Of a stretch of DNA of 64,000 nucleotides, positions 7,934 to 33,289 are shown piece after piece; the first letter of the stretch is position 1, and each line of letters opens with the position of its first letter. The DNA is from Cyclobacteriaceae bacterium (GTDB taxonomy: Bacteria; Bacteroidota; Bacteroidia; Cytophagales; Cyclobacteriaceae), in NCBI GenBank assembly GCA_028284125.1, contig JANQSI010000008.1, positions 186,001 to 250,000 on the forward strand, in the 5' to 3' direction. The position numbers were made by a program, and so were the translations under genes. The notes under the pieces are model-generated. The model saw nothing but the letters and a program-made list of their open reading frames with translations. It had not been told where the DNA came from and did not search any database.

Positions 7934-7963
7934 TTGTCAATCCAATCGAGAATATTATTTTTG
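7934..7963 (+). promoter_or_regulatory. Bacteroidota-type promoter of the initiator tRNA
   Basis: TTG (7934-7936), N19, TATTTTTG (7956-7963), matching the TTG/TAnnTTTG consensus. Confidence 0.65.
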
Positions 7964-7973
7964 CAATCCTTAT

Positions 7974-8046
<73 letters not shown>

Positions 8047-29459: not shown

Positions 29460-29604
29460 GAGTCTTTAGTTTTCGCTTCATTCATAGTTAGCAGCCAATA
29501 TCCACTTTCACGAAGTTTTCGGACACCTTTAGGATATTATTAACAACTATTTTGGAATTCATTAACATTACCCGTTAGAATGATCCAATCTGCTTGTTTT
29601 CAAG

Positions 29605-29634
29605 TTGACAATTTTGTATATTGAAATAGGTTTG
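29605..29634 (+). promoter_or_regulatory. Bacteroidota-type promoter upstream of candidate sRNA
   Basis: TTG (29605-29607), N19, TAGGTTTG (29627-29634); same spacing as the tRNA promoter. Confidence 0.55.
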
Positions 29635-29640
29635 ACGAAA

Positions 29641-29727
29641 AGTCAAATCTCATTGGAGGTTAGATTGGACTTACGATTCTTTTCGTAAGCCACACCGACC
29701 CAAAGGCGAGCAACCCTCGCCTTTTTT
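29641..29727 (+). ncRNA. Candidate small RNA of unknown family
   Basis: Promoter, stem AATCT/AGATT with GGAGG-containing loop, stem CTTACGA/TCGTAAG, then GC-rich terminator. Confidence 0.5.
29702..29727 (+). terminator. Rho-independent terminator of candidate sRNA
   Basis: AAAGGCGAG-caacc-CTCGCCTTT followed by T-run. Confidence 0.7.
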
Positions 29728-30877
29728 AATGTCCATTTTCCTTTAACGATTGCTCCTTTACTGACTTGTAAAACTCATTGGGGGTACATCCCATTTTCTT
29801 TTTGAAGGCTCGATTAAAAGTACTTTTACTATTGAACCCTGATTCATAGGCGATGGCTTCCAACGTGCGAGAAGAGAGATCTCCTTCCTGGATTTTCTTT
29901 ATAGCAAAATTGACTCTGTGTCCGTTAATGAAATTAAAGAAGTTCTCTCCATATTTTTCATTAAGTAATTGGGACAGGAGGTAGGATTGTGTGCCTACAA
30001 GCTCAGCTAGTTGGTTGAGGTTCAGTTCCTGAGTTAAATATGCCTTTTCTTGTTCGAGCAGATGTTCCAGTTTTTCTTTAAGCTCCTTTGAATCAACATC
30101 AGAAAGGGGTGAATTCTTGTATTTGCCTGGTTCTTCATACAGTCCGGAAACGACTTCAGGTTGTCTCCAGGATTTGTAGACGATGCTCGCGATAATGATC
30201 GAAATGAGAAGTAAAAAAAGAAAGTCAGCTGTGTTATTGATTTCATAATATCCTCCGGTGACGATTAGGAAGTACATTCCGAAAATCGCTATTCCAAGAA
30301 TAGAGGTTATCATGAGCAATTGTTTTACCCATCTTAAGTTGATTCTGGAAATTGTTGAGTAATACGATTCACATTTTTTAGCATAATCAGCTACTAGTTT
30401 ACCTGAGTAAATGACGTATCCTAGAACATGAATCACTTGAAGGCTTATGAAAAAGATAGAAGCAATCTTTAAAAAGGTAAGGTCTTCAACTTTATCGATT
30501 TCACATCGATAAAAAAATAGGACAGTCATAAGGGCAATTGATAGGGCTGCAGCAGCAGAATGTTTAACTAACCGACGGAATGAAGCTTTTCCACCTGTCA
30601 AATAAGTGATATGGAAATAGATAGACGGCCCAATGAGGAAGATGAATCCGTGAGAAATAAAATACAGATAGAGACTGAAGTTGTTTTCCTCGATATTGGC
30701 CGTTCTCCGCAATAGGAAAGTAGCCAGAATTGAAACAAGTACAGCAAGAAATCGGTTGGCAGCCATATTCCCTCGCCGGTGAGTAAAAAGAATATACGCC
30801 CAAACCAGTCCTAAGATGGCAATAAACAGCAGGGCCATTTGTATATCCAGGTTTATTCCTGATAAAATCGGAATCAT
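29726..30877 (-). CDS. AraC family regulator with N-terminal 7-TM-like membrane region
   Basis: C-terminal LEAIAYESGFNSKSTFNRAFKKKMGCTPNEFYKS; multiple N-terminal TM helices. Confidence 0.92.
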   Translation of the reverse strand: MIPILSGINLDIQMALLFIAILGLVWAYILFTHRRGNMAANRFLAVLVSILATFLLRRTANIEENNFSLYLYFISHGFIFLIGPSIYFHITYLTGGKASFRRLVKHSAAAALSIALMTVLFFYRCEIDKVEDLTFLKIASIFFISLQVIHVLGYVIYSGKLVADYAKKCESYYSTISRINLRWVKQLLMITSILGIAIFGMYFLIVTGGYYEINNTADFLFLLLISIIIASIVYKSWRQPEVVSGLYEEPGKYKNSPLSDVDSKELKEKLEHLLEQEKAYLTQELNLNQLAELVGTQSYLLSQLLNEKYGENFFNFINGHRVNFAIKKIQEGDLSSRTLEAIAYESGFNSKSTFNRAFKKKMGCTPNEFYKSVKEQSLKENGH

Positions 30878-31390: not shown

Positions 31391-32335
31391 CTAGGTTCCA
31401 AGAATTCTCTTAAGGATCGATTTTTGTTCTTGTTCAGGTTCGGTTGGATTTTCTTTCATAAAAGAACTAACATCAATACCCGCTTTCATAGCATATGATT
31501 TCAATTCATCATCACTGATCTTTTCCCCTGTAATTATATTCATAGGATGTCTTACATGGAAGTCAGTCCTGAAAGGTGCGCTGAGCATAGGAGTATAAAA
31601 AAAACAATCTTCGAAAAAGTAATGAGTCACTTGACTGTGTCGTGTTCTCGATTGATCCAAAATCGGATCCCCACCATGAAATAGATTTGCAGACCAAATG
31701 AGGCATTCACCTTTTGACATTGTTACTGATTCTTTTTTTAAATCTAGCGCTTCAATGAGTTCCTGTAACCCCTTCTCATATTCTGGGTACAGATCGTAGC
31801 TAGGAGGATCAGAAGATCCATGTATTGAAAACTGATCTAATCCAAAGAAAGGGAGCTTATGGGATCCAGGATAGTAATGTAGTGGACCATTCTTTTCATC
31901 GATATCTTCCAGGGCGAACCAAATACCGCACATAAATCCATATGGATACGTGTTGAAGTGGACAGAATCACTATGAGTCGCTTGCTCAGATCCTTTTTCA
32001 AAATTCAAAGTTTGAAAGGGGATTGGATTTCTTCCGAAAGCATTGCGTAGAAGATCGAGTAGAAAGGGTTCCAGAGCCAAATGCTTCACACTTTCAGAAA
32101 ATGTGAATGCATTTTCGATTCTTCTTCTGCCCGACCCTTCGTAGTTGACTTTTTTATACTCTTGATTACAATCGGAAATTATTTGGTCCAAAATGGAATG
32201 CTCGAGTTCAAGATCAACAATGCAAAACCCCTGATTTCGAAGACCTAGTACAGCCTTTTGACTTTTTGAATCCAGCGATTTGAATTTTTCGTCAAGCTCA
32301 ATATCCTCGATGAGATAAAATGGTTTGTCAAGCAT
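31391..32335 (-). CDS. Phytanoyl-CoA dioxygenase (PhyH) family protein
   Basis: THSDSVHF Fe-binding HxD; NGPLHYYPGSHKLPF; HGGDPI. Confidence 0.85.
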   Translation of the reverse strand: MLDKPFYLIEDIELDEKFKSLDSKSQKAVLGLRNQGFCIVDLELEHSILDQIISDCNQEYKKVNYEGSGRRRIENAFTFSESVKHLALEPFLLDLLRNAFGRNPIPFQTLNFEKGSEQATHSDSVHFNTYPYGFMCGIWFALEDIDEKNGPLHYYPGSHKLPFFGLDQFSIHGSSDPPSYDLYPEYEKGLQELIEALDLKKESVTMSKGECLIWSANLFHGGDPILDQSRTRHSQVTHYFFEDCFFYTPMLSAPFRTDFHVRHPMNIITGEKISDDELKSYAMKAGIDVSSFMKENPTEPEQEQKSILKRILGT

Positions 32336-32347
32336 ACGTGTTATGTT

Positions 32348-33289
32348 TTAACCGAATACTCTTTGCATGAAAGACTTTTTTTCTTTCCCGCTTGGTTCAC
32401 TCTCATTATTAGTTAGGGCCTTAATATTAACGCCTGCATTTGAGGCAAATTTTTCTTGATCACTCACACTTATAGGTTCTCCTGTAATGATATTCATCGG
32501 ACGTCTAATATTGAATTCCTTCGTAAATGGCGAACTAAGTAAGGGCGTATAGTAAAAGCAGTCCTCAAAAAAATAATGAGTTACCTGACTGTAGCGAGTT
32601 CGAGATTTGTCGTGGATTGGATCTCCGCCATGAAGCAGGTTTGCGGCCCAAATCAAGCAATCTCCTTTTCGCATCGTTACTGACTCTTTTTTTAGGTCAA
32701 GAGATTCTATTAGTCGTTGCAGTTCTTTTTCATATACTGGATAGTGTTCGTAAGTTGGAGGATTTACTGATCCATGCATTGAGAACTGGTCGAGTCCAAA
32801 GAACGGTAACTTATGAGATCCAGGATAGTAGTGCAGGGGACCATTGTTTTCATCGATATCTTCAAGAGCTACCCAAACACCACACATAAAACCATATGGA
32901 TACGTGTTGAAATGAATGGAATCGCTGTGAGTGGGTTGTTCAGTTCCCCTGTCAAAATTCAAAGTCCCAAAAGGAATCGGTTCTCTGCCATAGGCAGTTT
33001 TAAGTAGCTTAAGTATGTTTGGATTTAAAGCCAGACTTTTGGCGCTTTCGGAAAATAGATGAGCTGAGGCTACCCGAGCTCTATCTGATCCATCGCTTTT
33101 TGCTTTTTCGAATTCTTCAGTGCAATCTTCAATTATTTTATCAAGTAGTTCATCATCGACATTTATATCGATCACACAAAACCCTTCATTTCTTAGACTT
33201 AACAATGCATCTTGATCTTTCGAATCTAGCGATTTGAATTTTGCATCGTCTTTGAGATCAGGTATGAGGAAGTAGGGTTTTTCCAGCAT
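32348..33289 (-). CDS. Phytanoyl-CoA dioxygenase (PhyH) family protein, tandem paralog
   Basis: Same architecture: THSDSIHF, NGPLHYYPGSHKLPFFGLDQFSMHG, LLHGGDPI. Confidence 0.85.
   Translation of the reverse strand: MLEKPYFLIPDLKDDAKFKSLDSKDQDALLSLRNEGFCVIDINVDDELLDKIIEDCTEEFEKAKSDGSDRARVASAHLFSESAKSLALNPNILKLLKTAYGREPIPFGTLNFDRGTEQPTHSDSIHFNTYPYGFMCGVWVALEDIDENNGPLHYYPGSHKLPFFGLDQFSMHGSVNPPTYEHYPVYEKELQRLIESLDLKKESVTMRKGDCLIWAANLLHGGDPIHDKSRTRYSQVTHYFFEDCFYYTPLLSSPFTKEFNIRRPMNIITGEPISVSDQEKFASNAGVNIKALTNNESEPSGKEKKSFMQRVFG

Follow-up and report, generated by a model that had tools for sequence, protein, structure and literature searches.

A conserved, structured candidate small RNA with a predicted promoter and terminator of its own in Ekhidna and related Cyclobacteriaceae

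Few small RNAs of the Bacteroidota have been described beyond those of gut Bacteroides and flavobacteria. GibS of Bacteroides thetaiotaomicron is an intergenic RNA of 145 nt that has its own start site and terminator and a conserved 5' seed that is largely single-stranded; it comes from a genus with no obvious Hfq or ProQ (PMC7366714). Rfp18 of Flavobacterium psychrophilum is independently transcribed, strongly structured and conserved across a Bacteroidota genus (PMC9723704). The locus described here, located in a window of 64,000 nucleotides from a genome of Ekhidna (Bacteroidota, family Cyclobacteriaceae), resembles GibS in its intergenic position and its predicted start site and terminator, and Rfp18 in its predicted independent transcription, strong structure and conservation. 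Set against the published descriptions of these RNAs, however, it differs from both. The Ekhidna RNA is predicted to be ~99 nt long, begins with a hairpin and carries its conserved sequence mostly in paired regions and in its 3' half, unlike GibS, whereas Rfp18 belongs to a different lineage. While its size falls in the range of small structured RNAs such as 6S, SRP RNA and tmRNA, no Rfam 15 family reached its gathering threshold on the stretch or its homologues, nor was there any sensible weak match, in line with the novelty claimed in an initial annotation of this DNA; the sole Rfam match within the window is the tRNA. Likewise, among the papers listed for Cyclobacteriaceae, Ekhidna and Fulvivirga, none describes this RNA. 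The family is new, but its kind, the intergenic small RNA, is known.

We estimate a probability of roughly 80% that the locus is a free-standing gene whose product is a structured small RNA of ~99 nt, that it has a promoter and a terminator to itself, and that the RNA most likely serves as a trans-acting post-transcriptional regulator. Sequence comparison establishes that the promoter, the structure and the terminator are conserved and do not depend on neighbouring genes; transcription of the RNA and its action in trans are inferred from this. The features of the locus are as follows.

29594..29624, + strand: predicted promoter of the Bacteroidota sigma-A type, TTG (29594-29596)-N20-TATATTGA (29617-29624); homologues and PMC9723704
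29629..29727, + strand: predicted small RNA gene, ~99 nt, predicted +1 at 29629; conservation, fold z = -6.2, covariation
29629..29649, + strand: hairpin P1, GGTTTGAC (29629-29636) / GTCAAATC (29642-29649); covariation
29650..29657, + strand: unpaired linker TCATTGGA, terminal GG(A/T) kept, remainder variable; alignments A2 and A6
29658..29700, + strand: hairpin P2; MFE and centroid fold, covariation of the tip
29658-29661 / 29697-29700, + strand: base of P2, GGTT / GACC, followed by the internal loop AGAT/CACC
29666-29668 / 29690-29692, + strand: upper part of P2, TGG / CCA, with the tip stem CTTACGA (29670-29676) / TCGTAAG (29683-29689)
29702..29727, + strand: P3, predicted intrinsic terminator, AAAGGCGAG-CAACC-CTCGCCTTT (arms 29702-29710 / 29716-29724) and T-run; terminator scan, homologues
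29726..30877, - strand: AraC/HTH_18 regulator gene, a convergent neighbour outside the RNA; ORF, Pfam HTH_18 E = 4.7e-16

Single-sequence matches are of little help in judging this promoter and terminator. A consensus sigma-70 scan did not single out this promoter, and the number of terminators in the scan did not exceed that in shuffles; with such matches at chance level, the case rests on comparison and conservation. A TTG-N19/20-TAnnTT element lies at a fixed place immediately 5' of P1 in 19/19 homologues tested. In 16 of them the spacer is exactly N20 and the element ends 5-8 nt short of P1, compared with 0.03 expected in shuffles; the remaining three have N19. The consensus and position (-12 to -5) of the Bacteroidota -7 box have been published (PMC9723704). 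Setting the 8-nt box TATATTGA at that position places the predicted +1 at 29629, where P1 begins. The initial annotation had instead proposed TTG at 29605-29607, N19 and TAGGTTTG at 29627-29634, in analogy to a tRNA promoter that is indeed present in the window (TTG at 7934-7936, N19 and TATTTTTG, upstream of tRNA-Met at 7974). The proposed elements are found at these positions; they are not conserved in relatives, lie ~10 nt too far downstream, and TAGGTTTG runs into the 5' arm of P1. With the promoter at 29594-29624, which is conserved, the predicted start thus moves from near 29641 to ~29629 and the length from ~86 to ~99 nt. At the other end, the homologues share an intrinsic terminator, P3 with its T-run, whose stem is invariant.

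The segment 29629-29727 folds at -38.6 kcal/mol (z = -6.2), a stability matched by 0/200 shuffles; the same holds for the 88 nt of the initial annotation (z = -5.8; 0/200). The covariation among relatives that the annotation had called for is indeed observed. Across 16 homologues, 97.1% of cells pair and 15/29 pairs have changed on both sides, yielding a covariation score of 0.447 (0.166 in shuffles, <= 0.091 with partners slid) in an alignment that was fitted to the structure. A MAFFT alignment of seven sequences, made first, agrees with this, giving 98.0% pairing and a score of 0.273, compared with <= 0.074 with partners slid. P1 pairs in 97.6% of cells, with both-side changes in 7/8 pairs, and the P2 tip shows such changes in 5/5 modelled pairs, whereas the P2 base is nearly invariant in sequence. 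The stems noted previously are all present, including CTTACGA-TTCTTT-TCGTAAG (29670-29689), AAAGGCGAG/CTCGCCTTT (29702-29724) followed by T's, and AATCT/AGATT flanking GGAGG. The last of these, proposed as the first stem, holds up in close relatives, where 94% of cells pair, albeit without compensatory change; across the 16 homologues of A6, pairing falls to 76%. Its AATC is part of the 3' arm of P1, and a refolding switch between P1 and AATCT/AGATT is not supported. Distant types also have a layout of three domains, although the middle one is less certain in some of them; they include the Fulvivirga type (GGCTGTACAG...TAGCC) and a type with GAGGGAACGC in P1 (L058/L062/L070/L075). The four members of the latter lineage share a conserved inner element of P1, ~GUGGAGGGAACGCYAC, that is absent from the Ekhidna type.

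BLAST detected the RNA in 7/10 Ekhidna species searched (the window and six others, Ekhidna lutea among the carriers), with one copy each and no convincing match in the other three. A covariance model built from these seven sequences (R1) matched 17/297 family genomes. A second model built from 16 sequences (R2) extended the distribution to 45/397 Cyclobacteriaceae genomes in 13 genera at E <= 0.01, a tally that includes weak in-family matches (e.g. L082-L084) resembling ordinary terminators. Most family genomes are without a detectable copy, so that the distribution is patchy. Matches in an order-level sample were confined to the same family, and a phylum-level sample gave no convincing match outside it, the one weak hit being G939 (E = 0.008). 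Since G939 and L082-L084 look like ordinary terminators, they were kept out of the argument. In 84,980 species genomes, the pattern ACCCAAAGGCGAG-N3-6-CTCGCCTTT occurs at 21 loci only, the records of which carry the labels Cyclobacteriaceae, Fulvivirga, Flammeovirgaceae, Cytophagaceae, Ekhidna or Bacteroidia, and the loci that were folded have hairpin-rich, RNA-like sequence upstream of it. Each Ekhidna genome carrying the RNA contains exactly one copy of the P3 terminator, and a repeated or mobile element was rejected on this ground. Judged by its homologues, the RNA is thus confined to a single family of marine bacteria, only part of which retains it. Comparison among them strongly supports the core proposal, a small RNA that is novel and has a promoter and terminator to itself, and argues strongly that the RNA gene is real.

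The constraint is unevenly spread along the molecule. Each of the 18 columns of the terminator stem carries 2.00 bits; in mean information per column it is followed by the P2 base (1.81), the internal loop (1.41) and P1 (1.07), whereas the P2 tip and the P1 loop retain 0.37. Both arms of P3 are invariant in the 16 homologues, while P1 and the P2 tip vary by compensation; the ACCC preceding the terminator stem is also fixed in sequence. In an ordinary terminator one would expect compensated drift as well. The search model and the ACCCAAAGGCGAG-N3-6-CTCGCCTTT pattern partly favour terminator invariance, so that the contrast is cleanest for the BLAST-found genus members, which show the invariance too. 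That P1 covaries freely while the terminator stem stays invariant gives a hint as to which part of the RNA is recognized. Because the P2 base, the ACCC and the terminator stem are kept as sequence, the 3' half (GGUU...CCACACCAACCCAAAGGCGAG...CUCGCC) is a putative working surface, and we infer that a partner may read it as sequence. The pattern of constraint points to this half, either read by a protein or serving as a C-rich pairing site, as a likelier working surface than the AGGAGG-like linker. A more specific proposal, which we regard as rather doubtful, is that a Cyclobacteriaceae RNA-binding protein reads the 3' half, including the terminator hairpin, in a sequence-specific manner and that the Fulvivirga-type RNA is switched on via a regulator binding TGAC-N4-GTCAT. 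This palindrome occupies a near-fixed place in Fulvivirga-type loci, 133-141 nt before the terminator stem (exact in L053, L126, L127 and L132, one mismatch in L125 and L078), and the TTG -33 element is mostly not found there; for five Fulvivirga-type members, one of them with a mismatch, the distance is 133-138 nt. The palindrome possibly resembles an activator site and may be akin to CRP/FNR-type sites.

The linker raises the most tenable of the competing explanations, although an improbable one, namely that its AGGAGG-like sequence titrates the anti-Shine-Dalgarno of 16S rRNA and the RNA thereby modulates ribosomes. Such an activity would be notable in Bacteroidota, whose ribosomes are described as sequestering the anti-Shine-Dalgarno (PMC9976891). 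In the window, its close relatives and most members of the Fulvivirga type, GGAGG does lie directly 5' of P2. However, about half of the 16 A6 homologues have GGTGG or no motif at all, which breaks the pairing with CCUCC, and the second GG of GGAGG is paired at the P2 base. A sponge for a GGA-type protein was rejected, as GGA is not conserved and many members have GGTGG.

The gene neighbourhoods bear on a second explanation, marginally less probable still, in which the RNA controls a downstream + strand gene in cis, as a riboswitch or attenuator leader. In L010-L012 the RNA occupies the equivalent site next to the AraC gene; in L013-L015 it is found elsewhere, upstream of a pentapeptide-repeat gene. 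Among all homologues, the neighbours varied between AraC/LytTR-like genes, the pentapeptide-repeat gene, cbb3-oxidase accessory genes (FixH, DsbD_2) and others, and the RNA thus occurs in several unrelated neighbourhoods. The arrangement in L013-L015 would suit a leader, as the pentapeptide-repeat gene is on the same strand and follows ~140-200 nt downstream, counted from where the terminator stem begins. By contrast, the next gene is convergent in the window and several other lineages, so that no cis control is possible there. Moreover, P3 has an invariant stem and all the parts of a terminator, and there is no conserved, mutually exclusive antiterminator; divergent members have lost the single alternative pairing that was tested. 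In one genus and its relatives (L060, L071 and L049), the convergent genes downstream encode cbb3-oxidase accessory proteins (FixH, DsbD_2 family, FixG-like).

It is very unlikely that the RNA is translated, as the mRNA of a small protein or of a leader peptide. A frame of 7 codons does open in the window with a TTG codon 5 nt past GGAGG, but relatives stop within a few codons or read through. There is no conserved ORF in 34 members, in agreement with the earlier statement that the segment holds no substantial ORF; the longest ORFs are unrelated, several comprising only 0-8 aa, and substitutions track base pairing rather than codons. Least probable of all is that the element is merely the 3' end or terminator of the AraC or an upstream gene with the remainder incidental, because, although the two genes do meet tail to tail as first noted (the ORF at 29726-30877 on the - strand ends there) and the AraC stop overlaps the T-run, giving both genes a common boundary, the T-run is on the + strand and a minus-strand reading gives TTTGGGTC after the stem, so that P3 would end + strand transcripts, and the whole RNA including its promoter is kept without a nearby AraC gene in L013-L015, L044-L052 and Fulvivirga, homologues in several unrelated neighbourhoods that refute this reading and make the RNA more than an AraC terminator.

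With no stable neighbour, no conserved ORF and no Rfam relative, a trans-acting regulatory RNA is the best reading. Transcription would start from the sigma-A-type promoter and end at the P3 intrinsic terminator, and the RNA would then act in trans at the post-transcriptional level, by pairing with mRNAs or by binding a protein. As a clean, comparatively supported family for which the 5' end and structure are predicted, it lends itself to pull-down experiments on RNA-binding partners, with Ekhidna or Fulvivirga as culturable hosts. A search within the genus for complements of GGAGGUUAGAUUG yielded no promising mRNA target: the near-complements fell for the most part within coding regions and showed no pattern in 5' UTRs, and several of them lie antisense within the same F1-ATPase-like gene. 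Elsewhere in the window, on the - strand at 31391-33289, two similar tandem genes encoding 314 and 313 aa represent an apparent duplication, and their products, judged by eye, resemble phytanoyl-CoA dioxygenase-type proteins.
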